Of a stretch of 64,000 bases of DNA, positions 6,082 to 53,644 are shown in pieces (position 1 is the first letter of the stretch; each line of letters starts with the position of its first letter). Source of the DNA: Flavobacteriaceae bacterium. Lineage in GTDB: Bacteria > Bacteroidota > Bacteroidia > Flavobacteriales > Flavobacteriaceae. The notes under the pieces were generated by a model. That model worked only from the letters and a program-made list of their open reading frames with translations. It made no database searches and was not told where the DNA came from. The position numbers and the translations under genes are program-made. Location: positions 124,001 to 188,000 of the forward strand of contig JAQWIL010000005.1 of assembly GCA_029248885.1 (NCBI GenBank). The letters run 5' to 3'.

Positions 6082-7259
6082 GTTATCATGTGAATGAAAA
6101 AGGGTATTATGGAGATTTTGGCGGGGCATACATTCCCGAAATGCTCTATCCCAATGTAGAGGAATTGAGACAAAATTATTTAGAAATTACAGCACAAGCG
6201 GATTTCAAATCTGAATTTGACCAGCTTCTCCGCGACTATGTCGGTCGGCCAACGCCCCTCTATTATGCCTCTCGACTATCGGAAAAATACAACACCAAAA
6301 TCTATCTCAAGCGAGAAGACCTTTGTCATACGGGAGCACATAAAATCAACAATACCATCGGTCAAATCTTGGTTGCAAAACGATTGGGAAAAAATCGCAT
6401 TATTGCCGAGACTGGTGCGGGTCAGCATGGTGTCGCCACAGCCACTGTTTGTGCGCTGATGGGAATTGAATGTGTGGTGTTTATGGGCGAATTGGACATC
6501 AAACGTCAAGCACCAAATGTGGCACGTATGAAAATGCTCGGGGCAGAAGTCCGCGCTGCACAATCGGGGAGTAAGACACTCAAGGATGCAACCAACGAAG
6601 CGATTCGCGATTGGATCAACAACCCTGTGAACACACACTATATCATCGGTTCTGTGGTGGGGCCGCACCCCTATCCCGATATGGTTGCGCGTTTTCAAGC
6701 TGTTATTAGTGAAGAATGTAAAGCCCAGCTTTTAGAAGTCGAAGGTCGTGACTATCCCGATCATGTGGTCGCTTGTGTTGGGGGTGGTAGCAATGCTGCT
6801 GGCTTATACTACCATTACCTCGATGACAAACGCGTGAATATAATCGCTGTTGAAGCAGCTGGTAAAGGAATCGACACTGGCGAAAGTGCAGCCACATCAG
6901 CCCTTGGAAAAGAAGGAATCATTCACGGGAGTAAAACCCTACTGATGCAAACCGAAGATGGGCAGATTACTGAACCCTACTCCATTTCCGCTGGACTCGA
7001 TTATCCAGGTGTTGGTCCCATGCATGCGCATCTGTTTCGATCCAAACGTGCGGAGTTTATCTCGATTCCCGATCAAGAAGCGATGGATTGGGGACTCACC
7101 CTATCCCAAACTGAGGGAATTATCCCTGCGATTGAAACCGCACATGCCTTTGCCGTTTTAGATGAAAGAGCCTTTAAACCCGATGAGATCGTATTGTTTA
7201 ATTGCTCGGGGCGAGGTGACAAAGATCTGGATACCTATATTGATTATTTTAAATTGTAA
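6078..7259 (+). CDS. trpB: Tryptophan synthase beta subunit
   Basis: PLP enzyme that joins indole and serine to give tryptophan. The 393-residue protein starts with YYGDFGGAYIPEML and carries the PLP lysine Lys89 in HTGAHKINNT, the substrate loop ETGAGQHG, the phosphate-binding CVGGGSNAAG and SAGLDYPGVGP. It is of the standard TrpB1 type, which works with TrpA. Stop and trpA start overlap by one base. Confidence 0.97.
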   Translation: MSYHVNEKGYYGDFGGAYIPEMLYPNVEELRQNYLEITAQADFKSEFDQLLRDYVGRPTPLYYASRLSEKYNTKIYLKREDLCHTGAHKINNTIGQILVAKRLGKNRIIAETGAGQHGVATATVCALMGIECVVFMGELDIKRQAPNVARMKMLGAEVRAAQSGSKTLKDATNEAIRDWINNPVNTHYIIGSVVGPHPYPDMVARFQAVISEECKAQLLEVEGRDYPDHVVACVGGGSNAAGLYYHYLDDKRVNIIAVEAAGKGIDTGESAATSALGKEGIIHGSKTLLMQTEDGQITEPYSISAGLDYPGVGPMHAHLFRSKRAEFISIPDQEAMDWGLTLSQTEGIIPAIETAHAFAVLDERAFKPDEIVLFNCSGRGDKDLDTYIDYFKL

Positions 7260-8020
7260 TGAATCGAATCAACAAAACGCTAAACCAAGACAAAAAACTT
7301 TTGTCCATCTACTTCACAGCGGGCTTTCCCGAACTCGAAGACACCGTTCCCATTTTGGAGCAACTCCAAGAGGCAGGAGTGGACATGATCGAATTGGGAC
7401 TCCCCTTTTCCGATCCGCTTGCCGATGGACCAACCATACAGGAAAGTTCCACACAAGCCCTGCGCAATGGGATGACCACCGATAAACTCTTTTCCCAACT
7501 CGAAGGCATTCGCAATCGCATTCATGTTCCTTTGATTGTAATGGGCTACTACAACCCCATGATGCAATATGGCGTTGAGCGCTTTTGCAAACGCTGTCAA
7601 CAGGTGGGTATCGACGGGCTTATCATCCCAGATCTACCCGCTGATGTCTTTCAGGAGCAACACCAAAAACTTTTTCAACAATATGGGCTACTCAATATGT
7701 TTTTGATTACCCCCCAAACTCCGGACCAACGTATTCGCTATATCGACGATCTGTCTGAGGGCTTTATCTATATGGTGAGTAGTGCAGCAACCACTGGCGC
7801 ACAAGGTAGTTTTGGAGATACCCAACAGCACTATTTTCAACGAATCGCCGATATGAAACTCCAATCCAAACTCCTTGTCGGATTTGGAATCAGCAATGCA
7901 GAAACCTATCAAGCGGCTGTAGCCCATAGCCAAGGCGCCATTATTGGATCGGCCTTTATCAAGCACCTGGAAGCAAATGGCAACCAAAGTGTGCATGAGT
8001 TTGTCAAGACCATTCGATAG
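7259..8020 (+). CDS. trpA: Tryptophan synthase alpha subunit
   Basis: Cleaves indole-3-glycerol phosphate and passes indole to TrpB. The 253-residue TIM barrel shows the catalytic Glu45 and Asp56 in DMIELGLPFSDPLADGP, MGYYNPM, a GLIIPDLP segment and the phosphate-binding GFGISNAE. Last gene of the trp operon; followed by a hairpin-rich spacer and a convergent gene. Confidence 0.96.
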   Translation: MNRINKTLNQDKKLLSIYFTAGFPELEDTVPILEQLQEAGVDMIELGLPFSDPLADGPTIQESSTQALRNGMTTDKLFSQLEGIRNRIHVPLIVMGYYNPMMQYGVERFCKRCQQVGIDGLIIPDLPADVFQEQHQKLFQQYGLLNMFLITPQTPDQRIRYIDDLSEGFIYMVSSAATTGAQGSFGDTQQHYFQRIADMKLQSKLLVGFGISNAETYQAAVAHSQGAIIGSAFIKHLEANGNQSVHEFVKTIR

Positions 8021-8277: not shown

Positions 8278-10014
8278 CTACTCTTTTACAAAACGGTGTA
8301 CCAGGTTTTGGTTGCCGAGTTTTGCGGTGAGCAGATATACGCCTTTGGACAAGTCACTAACGTTGATGCGGTGTGCTGTGCCACTTTGGTGATCTGTCAG
8401 CAAACGCTTACCTCCCAGATCATAAACGGTATATGTTACCGTTCTGGCTTGGGGGCTGTCGATATGTAAAAGCTGTTGCGCGGGGTTGGGATAGACCGAA
8501 ACGCCCTGTTTTGCAAATTCGCTAATGCTTGCCGTAGCAGTCTGGTAGGCAATGCTGATGGCTTCGTCTGCGAAAATCGATAACGAACCATCGTCCTCAA
8601 CCGTTGAGTGGATATAGACCGTCAAAGGAAAAGCGGCCTCCCTTATGGCATCGGCAACGGCCTGGGCATCGGCATCAGCACCGACAACCACCGAACTCCG
8701 AACTCCCGTAGCCGTTTGTATCACCGTCAGTGGAGTATTGCTTTCGCTAATGCTTGTGAGTTCAGCTGCCGTAAAAGAAACTGCGGTACCTGTGGTGCCA
8801 GTGCTAGCCTCACGAAAGGTCGTGTTAAATCCTGAAACTTGGACTGTTGTTGAACGTTCCTCTCCACCAACAATTTTGGCTCCAAAATAGGCTGTTATGG
8901 GATTATCGTGTTGTGCCATCACAAAGGGATCGAGAGAAAAGGTCCATACGGGGTTATCGGCAAGCAAAACGATATCGTTTTCATACAGGCGGACTGGGGT
9001 GGTCTGGACATCGCTGACATAATATAGCGGATGAGCAGCAGTATATACAGATCTCTCATCCGTGATCACCCCTGTTTCATCAGCCGTTAGGGTTAGATTG
9101 TAAATTCTCTCGCTACGTGGATTTGAAAAATTACCACAAAGAATCGTTTCTTCTCCCGCAGGCCAAGTAAAGCTAGCACTGGGATTTGTTCCCGGGTCAT
9201 CTATGGTTTTGCTGTTAGACAAGGAGGTTGCTTCCCGAATTTCGAGGGCTTCATCGGCATAGACCAATAAAGAACCGTCTTCTTGTACTACCCCTTCGGC
9301 ATAGATTTCAAAATGAATGGCTGCATCTTGAATGGCATCGGCAATGGTCTGGGCTTCGGCACCGGCAGGAATGTCAAAATCAACCGATAGCTCGGGTGAA
9401 ACCCCCGTTTGTACCAAACGTAAGCTATGCCCGTCTGTGTCTCCCAACACACCCACCTCCGCAGTGGAAAAAGAAATCGGGGTGCCAATTGTTCCATCAG
9501 GCGATATAACTTCATCTGTGCTGTCAATTCCTGTTATTTCTAATGTTGGAACTTTAATTTCATTATCCTCTAATATAGCGTTAAAAAATGGAGTTAATGG
9601 GTTTTCGAATTGTGCCATCAAAAAGGCATCTATGGAAAAGGTAAATACTGGGTTATCGGCAAGCAAGACCGAATCGTTATCATAAATCCGAACTGGTGTG
9701 AGCTGGGTGTCACTCACATAAGTGAAGGGGTAAGCAGCCGCATAATCCGATCGTTTACTCAAAATGACGTGAGTATCGTTATCATTTAAAAATAAATTAT
9801 ATATCCTTGTTGTATCTTCAAGTGAAGTATCTGTGAAAAGCAATGCGGTGCTTTCCTCATCTGGCCAAGAAATGGTGGCACTTGCGCTAACTCCCGGGTC
9901 GTCTAGGGTTTTGGGTAGGTCGAGCTGTGCCTGGGCAAAGCCAAACGCAAAAAACGCAAAGAACGTAAAGAGTAAACGAGTGAGTTGGTCGTTGATTAAA
10001 GTAAATGGTTTCAT
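8278..10014 (-). CDS. Modular T9SS-secreted surface protein A
   Basis: A 578-residue secreted protein. It has an N-terminal signal peptide (to about residue 30, FAQAQ), two homologous modules of about 220 residues each, and a C-terminal T9SS type A sorting domain (about 505-578) with the SVYPNPA start, VYDLGGK, INVSDLSKGVYLLTAKLG and HRFVKE end. Each module begins KTLDDPG/KTIDDPG...W, contains YVSDxQxTPVR and LADNPVxTFS, and ends in a segment with ADAIxxAA and EDGSLxxxADEAxxI. I do not recognise the module; an adhesin-like beta fold is likely. The tail is nearly identical to that of the next gene, so the two arose by duplication and recombination. Final location should be the cell surface or medium. 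Confidence 0.85.
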   Translation of the reverse strand: MKPFTLINDQLTRLLFTFFAFFAFGFAQAQLDLPKTLDDPGVSASATISWPDEESTALLFTDTSLEDTTRIYNLFLNDNDTHVILSKRSDYAAAYPFTYVSDTQLTPVRIYDNDSVLLADNPVFTFSIDAFLMAQFENPLTPFFNAILEDNEIKVPTLEITGIDSTDEVISPDGTIGTPISFSTAEVGVLGDTDGHSLRLVQTGVSPELSVDFDIPAGAEAQTIADAIQDAAIHFEIYAEGVVQEDGSLLVYADEALEIREATSLSNSKTIDDPGTNPSASFTWPAGEETILCGNFSNPRSERIYNLTLTADETGVITDERSVYTAAHPLYYVSDVQTTPVRLYENDIVLLADNPVWTFSLDPFVMAQHDNPITAYFGAKIVGGEERSTTVQVSGFNTTFREASTGTTGTAVSFTAAELTSISESNTPLTVIQTATGVRSSVVVGADADAQAVADAIREAAFPLTVYIHSTVEDDGSLSIFADEAISIAYQTATASISEFAKQGVSVYPNPAQQLLHIDSPQARTVTYTVYDLGGKRLLTDHQSGTAHRINVSDLSKGVYLLTAKLGNQNLVHRFVKE

Positions 10015-10045
10015 AAGAAATGGATTATTGTTATTAAAAAATGGG

Positions 10046-12397
10046 TTATTCCTTCACAAAACGGTGTGTCAGATTTTGGTTGCCGAGTTTTGCGGTGAGC
10101 AAATACACCCCTTTGGACAAGTCACTAACGTTGATGCGGTGGGTTTGTCCACTGGCACTTTGTGTCGCCAACTCCTTTCCGGAGAGGTCAAAGACCGTGT
10201 ATTGCACATTGGTTGCACTTTGATATGCGATGTGCAAGAATAAGTCAACAGGGTTTGGGTAGATCCAAAGAGTTTGTGCTTTTAAATGATCTACATGCGT
10301 TGTAGCATAAACAATAACTGTTCTGGTCACCTCGTCTGCGTTGTTCCCTGCAGCATCACTTACATTATAGGTTATCGTATAGGTTCCCGCTGTGCTAGTA
10401 TCGACAGGGTTGACCGTAACAATGCTCTCCGTCAAATCTCCATCGAATGAATCTGTGGCTGTGGCGCCAGCATCAGTATAATCTTCGTCAACATCAAGAT
10501 TCACATCTGACGGGCGGACATTTGTTATCGGCTCATTATCATAGATATAGCGCACATAGGCCGTTTCTGTTTCTGCGATAGATTGCGCACCGCCGTTTGC
10601 GTGCCCAGCGTTTCCTGTATCTACCCATCTCTCACCGGGACTACTCCCAACCGTTTGTGTCCAAAGCAAATTTGCGTCATAACCACAACCTGTTCCCTTA
10701 GTCGCATCGTCTTGCAACTCTAGAAGGGTTGGTAAGCGAGCACCTGCCGCTTCGACGAGTTCCAACGCTTGGGCATAGGTTACTGCACCAGAACAAGCCA
10801 CATCACTGGGCTGGGAAAAGCCCGTCACTCCAGTACTTGTCGATCTAGCAGACCCTGTGTGAGCATCTGGCCGATCAACAGAAGACCCACTTTCGATCAG
10901 CTCATCAAACTGAGAAAAGTAATCCACATTACCAAGTGGGGTAATCACAGGTGGGCTAAGGTCGGCTACGTGTACTGTTCTGCTCACCTCATTTGCGGCA
11001 TTGCCGGCAGAATCAGTCACATTGTAGGTTACCGTATAGGTCCCTATTTTGTTTGGATTCACAGGATTGACTGTAACGATACTCGCCGTCAAATCTCCAT
11101 CTGCATCATCTATGGCCGTGGCACCTACATCTGTATATGGCTTTCCATAATCGTGGTACACATCTGACGGAAGGGTGTTTGTTATCGGCTCATTGTCATA
11201 GATATAACGCACATAGGCCGTTGCTGTTTCTGCGATTGATTTGGGAGCTGAAGATGAATATCTTCCTTTATCAACCATGCGTTCTCCTGGATTACTCCCA
11301 ACCGTTTGTGTCCATAGAAAATTTACGTCATAGTTACAACCCGTTCCCCTAGTCGCATCGTCTTGCAACTCTAGAAGGGTTGGTAAGCGAGCACCTGCCG
11401 CTTCGACGAGTTCCAACGCTTGGGCATAGGTTACTGCACCAGAACAAGCCACACCATTGGGCTGGGAAAAGCCCGTCACACCAGTACTTGTCGATCTAGC
11501 AGACCCTGTGTGAGCATCTGGCCGATCAGCGGAAGACCCGCTTTCGATCAGCTCATCAAACTGAGAAAAATAGTCCAACTCACCAAGTGGGATAATGACC
11601 GGGGGATTGTCAGTAATTTCGATAGCTTCATCAGCATAGACCGATAAGGAACCGTCTTCTTGTACCACCCCTTTGGCATAAATTTCAATTTGGGCTGCTG
11701 CATCTTGAATGGCATCGGCAATGGCCTGGGTATTGGCATTGGCAGAAATGGTAATATTAGCCGATCGCACTGTAGAAACGCCCTTTTGTGACAAGAGTAA
11801 CGTATGCCCATCTGTATCCCCCAACAGGCTCAGTTCTGCAGTGGAAAAGGTCAGTGGAGTACCCCAAGTTCCGACTACGTCAGGGGGATCTTGCGTGTCA
11901 GCAGCATAAAGACTCAATTTGGCTTGATCCCCAAAATAGGGGGTGATCGGTTGATTCTCATTGGGATGGTTTCGCTCTTGTTGGAGTGCCACAAAGGGGT
12001 CTAGGGTAAACTGGAATTGCAGATTGGCAGATATGGGAATGGTGTCCAATGTAGCAATAGTAAATGGCGTCAGGTGATTATCATCTGTATAGGTGAATCG
12101 ATAGTGATTTGTACTATAGCCTGTCGATGATCGCCTGTGAATATGGATTTTGGATGAAGGGGTGTGGCGATTGCCAACTATCAAAGTAATGGATTCATTA
12201 TTAGGAAGAATTTGAGAAAAGGTAAAAGTATAAGACCCAGAATAATCATTCCAGTTGATGGTATAAGCAGGACTCGTTCCTGGGTCTTCTAGGGTTTTGG
12301 GTAGGTTGAGCTGTGCCTGGGCAAAGCCAAGACCAATGAGAAAAAAAACAATCGAAAATAAACGAGTGGATAAACCACAGGTTATAGATAAATTCAT
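10046..12397 (-). CDS. Modular T9SS-secreted surface protein B
   Basis: A 783-residue paralogue of its neighbour. Order: signal peptide (MNLSITCGL...FAQAQ), one copy of the KTLEDPG...ADEAIEI module, then two tandem repeats each made of a DUF1566/Lcl-like domain (CSGAVTYAQALELVEAAGARLPTLLELQDD cut here into its key GARLPT and LWTQT parts) plus a DUF5011-type Ig-like domain (TYTVTYNVTDSAGN, TYTITYNVSDAAGN), and a T9SS type A C-terminal domain starting IYPNPV. I chose ATG 12397 because the signal peptide begins there; upstream codons read as non-signal sequence. DUF5011 domains are common in bacterial surface proteins, and Lcl folds are C-type-lectin-like, so ligand binding is possible. No SusC/D partner is nearby. 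Confidence 0.83.
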   Translation of the reverse strand: MNLSITCGLSTRLFSIVFFLIGLGFAQAQLNLPKTLEDPGTSPAYTINWNDYSGSYTFTFSQILPNNESITLIVGNRHTPSSKIHIHRRSSTGYSTNHYRFTYTDDNHLTPFTIATLDTIPISANLQFQFTLDPFVALQQERNHPNENQPITPYFGDQAKLSLYAADTQDPPDVVGTWGTPLTFSTAELSLLGDTDGHTLLLSQKGVSTVRSANITISANANTQAIADAIQDAAAQIEIYAKGVVQEDGSLSVYADEAIEITDNPPVIIPLGELDYFSQFDELIESGSSADRPDAHTGSARSTSTGVTGFSQPNGVACSGAVTYAQALELVEAAGARLPTLLELQDDATRGTGCNYDVNFLWTQTVGSNPGERMVDKGRYSSSAPKSIAETATAYVRYIYDNEPITNTLPSDVYHDYGKPYTDVGATAIDDADGDLTASIVTVNPVNPNKIGTYTVTYNVTDSAGNAANEVSRTVHVADLSPPVITPLGNVDYFSQFDELIESGSSVDRPDAHTGSARSTSTGVTGFSQPSDVACSGAVTYAQALELVEAAGARLPTLLELQDDATKGTGCGYDANLLWTQTVGSSPGERWVDTGNAGHANGGAQSIAETETAYVRYIYDNEPITNVRPSDVNLDVDEDYTDAGATATDSFDGDLTESIVTVNPVDTSTAGTYTITYNVSDAAGNNADEVTRTVIVYATTHVDHLKAQTLWIYPNPVDLFLHIAYQSATNVQYTVFDLSGKELATQSASGQTHRINVSDLSKGVYLLTAKLGNQNLTHRFVKE
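10505..11613 (-). repeat. Tandem intragenic duplication, 651-bp period
   Basis: Within protein B, sequence around 10505-10955 recurs at about 11159-11613 with a constant offset of 651 bp (217 codons). For example CGCATCGTCTTGCAACTC occurs at 10703 and 11354. Long stretches are nearly identical at DNA level, including synonymous positions, which suggests a recent duplication or ongoing gene conversion. Confidence 0.8.
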
Positions 12398-12484
12398 GAT
12401 AGGTAAGATTTGTGATGTTAAAGAAACAAAATGTTTTGGAAACAATCAAATTCTTGCTATTGAATTCAAATTGAAAACGTGGGG

Positions 12485-12616: not shown

Positions 12617-13378
12617 TTAGCGCACAAACACAGGTGCAGCAGGGTCGGTGGTATGTTCTTCACTGTAGCGGTAGCCGTCGCGGTCAAAGCCCAATATATC
12701 ATCAGCAGTTTGGGCATTGGTATCGATGAGGTAGCGCGCCATCAATCCTCTGGCTTTTTTGGCATAAAAAGAAATGATTTTTAGCGTACCGTTTTTGTAA
12801 TCTTTAAATACAGGTTCAATGACATTTGCATTTAAATCCCCAAAAGAAACAGCAGAGGCATATTCCTTACTCGCAAGGTTCACGACACACTCATCGGGTT
12901 GGAGTTCACGATTGAGTTGGGCAGTGATTTTATCTTGCCAAAAACCGTACAAATTCTTGCTGCCATTCACTGCAAAAGAAGTGCCCATTTCCAAGCGGTA
13001 GGGCTGCATGAGATCAAAAGGTTTGAGTACGCCATAAAGACCTGAAAGGATACGTAAGCTATTGTTGAGCGTATCCCATTTGCCTTCCTCGATCGTATAG
13101 GCGTCGAGGCCAGTATAGACATCTCCATCAAAAGCATACACCGCAGGGCGTGCATTATCGGCTGTAAAGGGAACCGAAAAGCTTTGGTTTCGAGTCCAAT
13201 TGAGCTCGGCGAGTTTGTCAGAAATTCCCATGATTGCCTTTAGCTCGGCAGGAGATTTTTTTCGCAAAGCCGTATTGAGGGTAGCCGCTTGCTGAACAAA
13301 AACGGGTTGACTGCAAGTGGCATGCGGCAAAGGGCTTTCGTAATTCAAAGACTTGGCAGGGGATACTAAGAGTTTCAT
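12617..13378 (-). CDS. yaaA: YaaA family peroxide stress protein
   Basis: A 253-residue DUF328/UPF0246 protein, full length, beginning MKLLVSPAKSLNYE as in the E. coli YaaA family and keeping the family's YDGDVYTGLDA-like (AFDGDVYTGLDAYT), SGLYGVLKPFDLMQPYRLEMG, NLASKEY and ISFYAKKARGLMARY segments. In E. coli YaaA lowers free iron and limits oxidative DNA damage; DNA-binding activity has also been ascribed. It seems to be a single gene with its own promoter (TATTTTTG box at 13395-13402). Confidence 0.93.
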   Translation of the reverse strand: MKLLVSPAKSLNYESPLPHATCSQPVFVQQAATLNTALRKKSPAELKAIMGISDKLAELNWTRNQSFSVPFTADNARPAVYAFDGDVYTGLDAYTIEEGKWDTLNNSLRILSGLYGVLKPFDLMQPYRLEMGTSFAVNGSKNLYGFWQDKITAQLNRELQPDECVVNLASKEYASAVSFGDLNANVIEPVFKDYKNGTLKIISFYAKKARGLMARYLIDTNAQTADDILGFDRDGYRYSEEHTTDPAAPVFVR

Positions 13379-51241: not shown

Positions 51242-53644
51242 ATGCGCTACTTGCTCGTTTGCTTTGTGCTTTTTGCCTTGACGCAATGCTCAACTCCTCC
51301 GCAAAACGCGGTTAACCTTCTTGGCTTTATCCCTGCAAAGCCCGTTGCAATTCTTCATACCGAGGATATGGAATCCTTAGTTGGTTTTTCAAACAGTCAG
51401 ACTCAACTCAGTCGTTTCCTCCATCCGCTTGTATCTGCAAAAGAACATTGGTTATCCTTTCAAGAGTGTATCGTCAGTTATCATAAAGAGGGTGTCGAAG
51501 AATACAAATACCTTTTGATTCGCCCTTTGGCTCCGCTCGATAGCCTTCCCCAACTTGTTGGAGATACGCTGCGCTATGAAAACTTACCTGTCATTCGGTT
51601 TGAAAAACAAAGCATCGACCGCTATGCTGTTGTTTTTCAGAATACCTATTTTGAATCTGACTCGAAAATTTTACTCGAAAACAGTATCCGACTTCACAGT
51701 ACGCCAAACCTCCCAGATGAAAATCTTCAAAAACTATACAACTCAAAAGCAGGGCCTTTCCAACTTTTTATCAATGAGAGATCTCAAACCCTATTGGCTG
51801 AGAAATTTAAGACTACGATTCCCTTTAACCTCTCCGATTTTTCGTCTTGGGTGTCCCTCCAGCCAGAAATCGAAAATGGAAATACCATTTTGAACACCGT
51901 CGGTTTGCTCTCCTCAGAAGAATTGACAAAAATGAGTCTGCTTTCCAATCAGACACACGATCTATCAAAGTTACTCTCAAATCTACCCCTCACAATGATC
52001 GGTGCATCTCTATATGGATTTGACGCTGATCGATTCTCTGTTGTTCGGGATCGCTATAACGCACAACAAAATTTACCAAGTCCGCCTATCGACAGTCTTT
52101 TGATGCAAGCGCAGGCAATTGCTAAAGTGCACACGCTCCAAAGCCAAATTGCAGTGCTAGACATGACTGGAGTTGAAGGCGTTATCGACATACTGGAAAA
52201 AAATGCAGAAGCAACTCGTAAGTTAAGAGATGTCATGACCTATCAGTTCTCAAAAGAAAAATCGATTAAAGGCCTCGGCGCACCTTTGTTAAATCTGCCA
52301 ACGCTCACAAATGCGTCTCTATTGAATAATCTATTGTTTTTAGCACCATCCGAGATATCTCTTACTGAAATACTTACGCAAATCTTCAATGGGTATACCC
52401 TAGGCAGCGACGAGCAGTTTGCTGGACTTTTGGAAGAAGTGCCAAATGAATCATCTTTGCTCTATGTTGGCGTGGAGGAGTTCTTTTTAAAACAACTCAA
52501 TTCTCTATTGATTGACGATCTACCCATGGATTCCACTAGCGAATTCCCCTTTTGGCTTGGGGCTGGATTGGTCGAAAGTGGCGTTGCTCAAATCCAATTT
52601 AAGCGGGTCTCCAAGCAAGAAAAAATCAAAAATAAACGACCCAAACTCTTGTTTTCAACGCCAATTGAAAGCGCCATATCGCAAGGTCCAAACGCTGTAC
52701 TGAATCATCTCAATGGATCAATGGAATGGGTCGTTCAAGATGAAAAGCACAATTTGATGTTGATCAGCAATAGTGGAAAAAGCACTTGGACAAGGCCCAT
52801 CGGGAGTCCGATTCAGTTTCCCATTCGTCAAGTTGATTTGTATAAAAACAGTCGACTTCAAATGGCTTACACCACAAAAAATGGCTTTGAAGTCATCGAT
52901 CGAAATGCAAAGCCTGTACCTCCCTTTTCTTCGACACTCAACAATCCTTTGCCTCTCGCTGTTTTTGATTATGAAAACTCCCGAGACTATCGACTCGTTC
53001 TGATCGACCAAAACAAGTTAGCATTTCGCGATCGACAGTTTACGAAAGTAAGCGGATTCAACCGTACAAAAGCCAATCTTAAGTATGCGCCCAAACATAT
53101 TCGAATTGGCACAAGAGACTATATCACAATGGTCGAAAAAAGTGGAAAATTACTTTTACTCGATCGCAGGGGGAATGTTCGTATCAAAACACCAAATGAT
53201 TTGGTGATGTCCTCCGATGTGTATCTGCATCAAAATGGTTTTGTTGGTCTGGACAATAAAAACCGACTGCTTCGCATTGAAATCAACGGTAAAATAAGCT
53301 ATCGCACACTCCCCTTTGAAACCCCATATCAAGTCCGTGCAAGAGGAAAAAACCTTGTGTTGCTCACCGAAAATAAACTCGAAATCAATGGGCGACTGTT
53401 AGAACTCGATTTTGGATTATACGGAGAACCCTCAATTCATGTGGTCAACAACCGCACCATGATCAGCTTGGTTGATGAACAAGAGGAAAAGGTGTATGTT
53501 TTTGACCGAAAAGGAAACCTGCTTCCACATTTCCCGATTTATGGTGCTGGTCCAATCACGATTGACAGCGATCGAAAAGGGAAAGTGTTTTTGGCAACGA
53601 CTGGCGAGAATAACAGCTTGGTTGTTTATCAAATTCCGCAATAA
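51242..53644 (+). CDS. Large predicted lipoprotein, unknown function
   Basis: An 800-residue lipoprotein with signal and lipobox LFALTQC (Cys16). The N-terminal half is mixed, with a helix-rich portion around residues 270-350; it vaguely resembles bacterial DUF3352 proteins. The C-terminal third (about 480-800) has recurrent beta segments with short hairpins such as LLLDRRGNVRIKTPNDLV, LLRIEINGKISYRTLPF and YVFDRKGNLLPHFPIYG, suggesting a beta-propeller. I do not know its function. It is close behind rnhB but has its own box; the next gene lipB is convergent. Confidence 0.75.
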   Translation: MRYLLVCFVLFALTQCSTPPQNAVNLLGFIPAKPVAILHTEDMESLVGFSNSQTQLSRFLHPLVSAKEHWLSFQECIVSYHKEGVEEYKYLLIRPLAPLDSLPQLVGDTLRYENLPVIRFEKQSIDRYAVVFQNTYFESDSKILLENSIRLHSTPNLPDENLQKLYNSKAGPFQLFINERSQTLLAEKFKTTIPFNLSDFSSWVSLQPEIENGNTILNTVGLLSSEELTKMSLLSNQTHDLSKLLSNLPLTMIGASLYGFDADRFSVVRDRYNAQQNLPSPPIDSLLMQAQAIAKVHTLQSQIAVLDMTGVEGVIDILEKNAEATRKLRDVMTYQFSKEKSIKGLGAPLLNLPTLTNASLLNNLLFLAPSEISLTEILTQIFNGYTLGSDEQFAGLLEEVPNESSLLYVGVEEFFLKQLNSLLIDDLPMDSTSEFPFWLGAGLVESGVAQIQFKRVSKQEKIKNKRPKLLFSTPIESAISQGPNAVLNHLNGSMEWVVQDEKHNLMLISNSGKSTWTRPIGSPIQFPIRQVDLYKNSRLQMAYTTKNGFEVIDRNAKPVPPFSSTLNNPLPLAVFDYENSRDYRLVLIDQNKLAFRDRQFTKVSGFNRTKANLKYAPKHIRIGTRDYITMVEKSGKLLLLDRRGNVRIKTPNDLVMSSDVYLHQNGFVGLDNKNRLLRIEINGKISYRTLPFETPYQVRARGKNLVLLTENKLEINGRLLELDFGLYGEPSIHVVNNRTMISLVDEQEEKVYVFDRKGNLLPHFPIYGAGPITIDSDRKGKVFLATTGENNSLVVYQIPQ

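Follow-up and report, generated by a model that had tools for sequence, protein, structure and literature searches.

Two described adhesin types provide the closest comparison to the proteins considered here. The gingipain/HagA adhesins of Porphyromonas gingivalis are cargo of the type IX secretion system (T9SS) with a conserved C-terminal domain and a modular make-up, and one report describes modular adhesin domains in combinations that differ between proteins and strains, as well as domain rearrangement (PMC5266723). GbpA offers a precedent for a flagellin-like domain within a secreted multidomain adhesin (domain 2; PDB 2xwx, 8gum). Its description records a distant likeness of domain 2 to flagellin p5, with the p5 domain touching the bacterial surface and projecting the binding domain, in a protein that leaves by type 2 secretion and possesses a CBM33 domain (PMC3257281). 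The window analysed here is a 64,000-nucleotide (nt) stretch of a Flavobacteriaceae genome (contig JAQWIL010000005.1, positions 124,001 to 188,000). It contains two minus-strand open reading frames (ORFs), encoding proteins A and B, flanked on one side by trpA (7259-8020) and on the other by a yaaA-like gene (12617-13378), with both neighbours named by eye. The corresponding assembly (G000) comprises 1.5 Mb in 38 contigs and is 78% complete. Like the P. gingivalis adhesins, A and B are modular T9SS cargo, but they have other domains, belong to another bacterial group and gave no protease family match (Pfam); unlike GbpA, no CBM33 family was found in either (Pfam). On balance, we lean slightly towards a reading of A and B as surface or secreted multidomain adhesins, with spacers resembling domain D2 of flagellin and FliD, variable heads, and exchange of blocks between genes.

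A repeated module in two T9SS cargo proteins

Proteins A and B share a module of ~225 residues, present twice in A (A1, amino acids (aa) 31-260; A2, aa 266-490) and once in B (B1, aa 30-262). The copies are 30-45% identical, with A1/A2 at 45% (E 1e-60), A1/B1 at 43% (1e-52) and A2/B1 at 30% (2e-20) in BLASTP of a five-sequence set, while an A1 query against the whole genome recovers A2 (E 4e-54) and B1 (7e-44). By sequence, this likeness is far beyond chance and the three copies are clearly homologous, as the original prediction had proposed. Of the motifs named at that stage, the start KT(L/I)xDPG...W and the end ADAIxxAA...EDGSL...ADEAxxI occur in all three copies, whereas an exact YVSDxQxTPVR is confined to A1 and A2, with a degenerate form in B1. 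The search of other proteins of the genome, which had been suggested as a check, revealed a fourth copy in protein C (475 aa; contig C6, L012 856-2283). A fifth is found in protein D (380 aa), encoded by G003, a genome of the same genus. The five copies have 18 invariant columns, and the module is made up of two parts, an N-terminal part of ~140 residues and a C-terminal part of ~86 residues.

The module had been called unrecognised, with a clear Pfam match named as the observation that would speak against this. Inside the module no Pfam match lies above cut-off, and no NCBIfam model attains its cut-off either. The description holds for sequence families at their cut-offs, but perhaps not for the fold of the C-terminal part, which resembles flagellin/FliD in fold searches (see below). 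A PHROGs search with proteins A and B gave nothing under E 0.04, and profile searches of PDB sequences returned no useful match to the module, the best for the C-terminal part being an unconvincing ribokinase (E 0.018).

Both proteins end in a TIGR04183 tail at the extreme C-terminus (A 53.6 bits, B 56.4 bits; cut-off 23) that is also recognised by PF18962, and their leaders end FAQA↓Q as judged by eye. SprA is encoded in the same genome (TIGR04189, 2616 bits; C6:46386-53534). The presence of both elements agrees with the original assignment of A and B as paralogous T9SS cargo. The genome has 33 tail-bearing places, 31 of them above cut-off; tails were compared as 23 distinct sequences drawn from these places (26 entries less two spurious and one duplicate, with ten places left out).

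DNA mosaic among cargo genes

Comparison at the DNA level shows a mosaic that involves no fewer than four G000 cargo genes, those for A, B, C and a protein encoded on contig C16 (L084) that was judged by eye to be of the beta-propeller type. Between A and C (the latter on contig C6), 54 nt at the leader end are 94% identical and 233 nt of the tail are 96.6% identical; the end of the putative A signal peptide is 94% identical to both B and C. A stretch of 172 nt, which begins ~50 nt 5' of the ATG and reaches into the start of the module, is common to B and C at 87%. For A and B, 234 nt of the D2-like part are 79% identical and the last 95 nt 91% identical, and a 258-nt direct repeat relates the A1 C-terminal part to 11615-11872 at 77% identity. 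C and the L084 gene have 306 nt in common at 93.8%, corresponding to a Big-like domain. This Big-like domain has no Pfam match above cut-off, the best for the copy in C being DUF1918 (E 0.035).

The earlier remark that A and B have almost the same C-terminus stands for the last 31 codons (97% identity at the aa level) and fails for the preceding 42 (48%). The near-identical counterpart of the A tail is the tail of protein C, on another contig, rather than that of B. At four-fold degenerate sites, A and C agree at 32/36 positions in the tail versus 8/27 in the module (p 3e-6), C and the L084 gene at 36/41 in the Big-like domain versus 5/21 in the tail (p 9e-7), and the A and B tails at 10/13 in the last 31 codons versus 1/10 in the preceding 42 (p 0.003), with block contrasts picked after the blocks were seen and p-values uncorrected. 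Such uneven identity between blocks is hard to explain by selection on the protein alone. The sharp contrasts between neighbouring blocks in A, B and C support the suggestion, made from the window alone, of domain shuffling among T9SS cargo.

Ordinary paralogy is a rival explanation: a single duplicated T9SS cargo family could keep its leader and tail through purifying selection while the middles drift without any block exchange, and the leader end and tail do serve export and are conserved ends. We consider this explanation improbable, given that some blocks are conserved even at four-fold degenerate sites while adjacent blocks are not, and that C and the L084 product differ in architecture yet share the 306-nt block at 93.8%, with their tails agreeing at only 5/21 of these sites.

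Within protein B, the two Lcl-like repeats (10612-10911 vs 11263-11562) are 92% identical in DNA, compared to 77% for the adjoining immunoglobulin (Ig) parts, and this contrast, also present at four-fold sites (p 0.011), is another sign that divergence is uneven. The Ig parts correspond to PF16403 (Bact_surface_Ig-like), two copies of which lie above cut-off in B (two stretches, 118.6 bits vs cut-off 27, E 1.2e-34). We take DUF5011 to be the old name of this family, and the DUF5011 repeats originally predicted in B are therefore borne out. The companion assignment to Lcl/DUF1566 (PF07603) is not: PF16403 covers only the Ig part of each repeat, and neither adjacent Lcl-like part has a family match above cut-off or, with E allowed up to 10, any Pfam match, in a scan limited by HMMER filters that discard most matches above E ~0.1. 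The nearest sequence hint is a below cut-off FGE-sulfatase match (E 0.01) in a relative of the repeat from the genus genome G005; the Lcl/DUF1566 fold is presumably C-type-lectin/FGE-like. The Lcl-like region of B is modelled at a predicted local distance difference test score (pLDDT) of 22-45 per ten residues. Two further cargo genes carry the repeat 3' of a MAM domain: a G000 gene, in which PF00629 recognises the domain, and a G005 gene, in which the MAM-like part was assigned by similarity to the G000 gene. A BURRH match of the Lcl-like profile (E 2e-7) was rejected, as no stretch passes alone and a repeat artefact is likely.

Predicted fold and the adhesin reading

AlphaFold2 was run on A1 together with the copies A2, B1 and D (mean pLDDT 57), and also on B aa 172-492. 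In the A1 model, pLDDT per ten-residue block is 72-90 over module residues 151-230 and 25-61 over residues 1-140, while in the B1 model the blocks covering model residues 11-90, the same C-terminal part, reach 82-94. Structure prediction, another of the checks initially proposed, thus performed well for the C-terminal ~86 residues and badly for the N-terminal ~140. Both models show a predicted strand-helix-strand-strand-helix-strand-strand-strand order for the C-terminal part. The same order is seen in flagellin/FliD D2 (Flagellin_IN, PF07196; PDB 4nx9, 5h5v, 2zbi), with which 76-82 module residues align at 2.3-3.1 Å (VIA-align rows 1-3, both models). We take the aligned flagellin/FliD stretches to be the D2 domain, an assumption except where PDB titles name D2-D3.

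A flagellin or FliD chain tops all four PDB fold searches. With the A1 model, Foldseek places flagellin or FliD at ranks 1, 3 and 5, and VIA-align returns flagellin/FliD for 22 of the 25 top entries and phage tail proteins for the other 3 (top Z 7.1 over 79 residues). With the B1 model, every Foldseek match down to rank 12 (chains of 10 entries) is flagellar by its title or, for 9gnz and 9u4r, in our judgement of the title (best E 0.0096), and so are 16 of the 18 top VIA-align entries (top Z 7.3, with 81 residues aligned at 2.5 Å). The GbpA structure appears in both VIA-align lists, with Z 4.9 for the A1 model and 5.4-5.7 for the B1 model. A viral fold library gave no match at E 0.001 or better. 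In the C-terminal part of B1, Pfam reports a sub-threshold Flagellin_IN match over most of the profile (E 0.017, 15.8 bits vs cut-off 22.7). Hence, the models suggest that the C-terminal part is likely flagellin/FliD D2-like in fold. Unlike flagellin itself, A and B have no flagellin N or C family (Pfam, E up to 1), and the D2-like part sits in T9SS cargo with a sequence below the Flagellin_IN cut-off.

In the model we propose, Sec would export A and B, after which the T9SS would move them to the surface or the outside; the corresponding domains are present, and export is inferred from them. Each module would carry a variable N-terminal head on a small spacer folding like flagellin/FliD D2. 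The heads may contact a ligand such as polysaccharide, other cells or particles, with the D2-like and Ig domains acting as spacers that hold them off the cell. Recombination between homologous stretches, namely the leader, the D2-like part, the Big-like domain and the tail, would swap blocks and so diversify the genes.

Several observations weigh against this reading. A function as adhesins, while probable, is derived from sequence and models. The fold matches are modest: Foldseek E values are >= 0.0096 and never reach 0.001, TM-scores are low, and Z is <= 7.3, where values of ~7 are commonly reached by models with no true counterpart. The A1 and B1 models share most alignment rows and hence are not independent. 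Sub-threshold sequence hints disagree, with SIMPL (E 0.00045) outranking Flagellin_IN in B1, Big_6 (0.00012) the best in D, unrelated families matched by A2 and C, and none by A1. The N-terminal part is badly modelled, and the four-fold site contrast between A1 and B1 (17/30 in the D2-like part vs 3/11 in the N part) is not significant (p 0.16). Furthermore, N parts are 18-33% identical and D2-like parts 39-67% identical when A1, B1 and C are compared (18% and 40%, respectively, for A1 vs C), but the trend is reversed between A1 and A2, with 47% for the N parts and 41% for the D2-like parts. Because of this reversal a faster-changing head is not general and is a tendency at best, and our confidence in the overall reading was lowered a little.

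The low fold scores (Z and Foldseek E) also bear on whether the D2 likeness could stem from convergence on a small alpha/beta layout of a common type rather than from common descent. Flagellin_IN is above cut-off in 0/299 family genomes vs 3/14 control genomes (below cut-off, it is seen in three of the 299 at E 0.006-0.008, none of them G000), a distribution that likewise favours convergence. Set against the flagellar chain leading all four PDB lists and the sub-threshold Flagellin_IN match spanning most of the profile, convergence has, in our view, a little under an even chance.

The N-terminal part, lacking a fold assignment, leaves room for a catalytic domain, and the module could in principle be an enzyme or a processed propeptide-enzyme unit. 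This we regard as very unlikely: there is no family or PDB sequence match, the 18 invariant columns in our judgement form no recognised catalytic set, and tandem modules with Ig partners are generally commoner in adhesins.

As far as a thin literature search with few subscription journals can tell, proteins of the adhesin kind are already known, and what is new is the module, the use of its D2-like part in T9SS cargo and the mosaic seen in this genus; no title or opening of an abstract found in it mentions flagellin-like domains for such cargo. If the adhesin reading is correct, the fold of the flagellar filament and cap would also serve as a building block in cargo of an unrelated secretion system, and this in a family with Flagellin_IN above cut-off in none of the 299 sampled genomes. 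The four-fold-site mosaic is a tangible example, from uncultured flavobacteria, of surface proteins that exchange blocks. In these bacteria variability at the surface may play a part in attaching to particles or in evading phages and grazers.

Distribution, insertion sites and gene layout

By sequence searches, the module is rare. A five-copy profile matches 2/13 genus genomes (G000 and G003), with G003 the sole carrier among the 12 others; these are 58-86% complete, so that absence from any single one is weak evidence. Another search across the genus gave weak matches (E 0.03-0.41) in six genomes. Among 397 sampled family genomes, the same profile finds G000 and one weak, doubtful match in G272 (E 6e-4), which was dropped as the protein appears PKD/Ig-like by eye. 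The C-terminal part alone, searched in 395 genomes of the order at E 0.01, gave nothing beyond its own genome. In a broader collection of genome contigs, which may omit records from the genome of the window, no relative was recovered with a profile built from the first four copies, and a protein D query returned only its own record. A phage origin was rejected, as protein A matched none of 50,697 phage records and neither it nor the module profiles matched viral contigs.

The neighbourhoods of trpA and ruvB, with genes named by eye, were compared across the genus. In the ten genomes with a TrpA match, the yaaA-like gene directly follows trpA in 6 and is separated from it by one methyltransferase-like gene in 2; in G009 the stretch read contains no yaaA-like gene and no A/B, and in G000 A and B occupy the site. 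Twelve genomes have a RuvB match: coxA adjoins ruvB in 7, the contig ends in G012, an intervening ORF without a recognised tail is seen in G006, protein C occupies the site in G000, and other T9SS-type genes are present in G005 (tail by PF18962) and G003 (tail by similarity). A, B or C was found at the same place in none of the readable relatives. The genus assemblies are small (1.0-1.7 Mb) and incomplete. It is possible, though unlikely, that the locus reflects a lineage-specific surface diversification, in which a constant promoter/leader and tail flank middle blocks recombining at the ruvB and trpA sites, and a recruited D2-like spacer carries variable heads.

Protein C lies upstream of ruvB and ~3 kb from sprA, such that a cargo gene adjoins a core T9SS gene. 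The G005 cargo gene by ruvB (contig C131) is in two overlapping frames (L031 1024-2001 and 1899-2516), the first MAM-like and the second Lcl-like, Ig and tail, indicating a frameshift or a sequencing error. In G003 (contig C12, L064 4704-5834), the T9SS-type gene between coxA and ruvB has short repeats (VVIGENTYAL...) and an in-frame stop.

Table 1 Features of the A and B genes (window coordinates)
Feature	Coordinates	Strand	Content or basis
Protein A, 578 aa	8278-10014	minus	putative leader, two modules, T9SS type A tail
Putative signal peptide of A, aa 1-29	9928-10014	minus	FAQA↓Q cleavage by eye
Module copy A1, N-terminal part	9496-9924	minus	sequence alignment, model
Module copy A1, C-terminal part	9238-9495	minus	flagellin/FliD-like by fold search
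Module copy A2, N-terminal part	8800-9219	minus	sequence alignment
Module copy A2, C-terminal part	8545-8799	minus	aligned with A1 and B1 C-terminal parts
T9SS type A sorting tail of A and stop, aa 507-578	8278-8496	minus	TIGR04183, PF18962
Protein B, 783 aa	10046-12397	minus	putative leader, one module, two (Lcl-like + Ig) repeats, T9SS tail
Putative signal peptide of B, aa 1-28	12314-12397	minus	by eye
Module copy B1, N-terminal part	11873-12310	minus	sequence alignment
Module copy B1, C-terminal part	11612-11872	minus	flagellin/FliD-like by fold search
Lcl-like repeat 1 of B	11201-11611	minus	repeat comparison; matches no family above cut-off
Ig-like repeat 1 of B (PF16403)	10961-11200	minus	Pfam
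Lcl-like repeat 2 of B	10544-10960	minus	repeat comparison; matches no family above cut-off
Ig-like repeat 2 of B (PF16403)	10310-10543	minus	Pfam
T9SS type A sorting tail of B and stop, aa 712-783	10046-10264	minus	TIGR04183, PF18962

Counts of sigma-70-like and terminator-like sequences were lower than shuffled means. Elsewhere in the window, an 800-aa ORF at 51242-53644 has no Pfam match at E <= 1e-8. The longest ORF for protein B begins at a TTG at position 12445, and its 783 aa are counted from the ATG.

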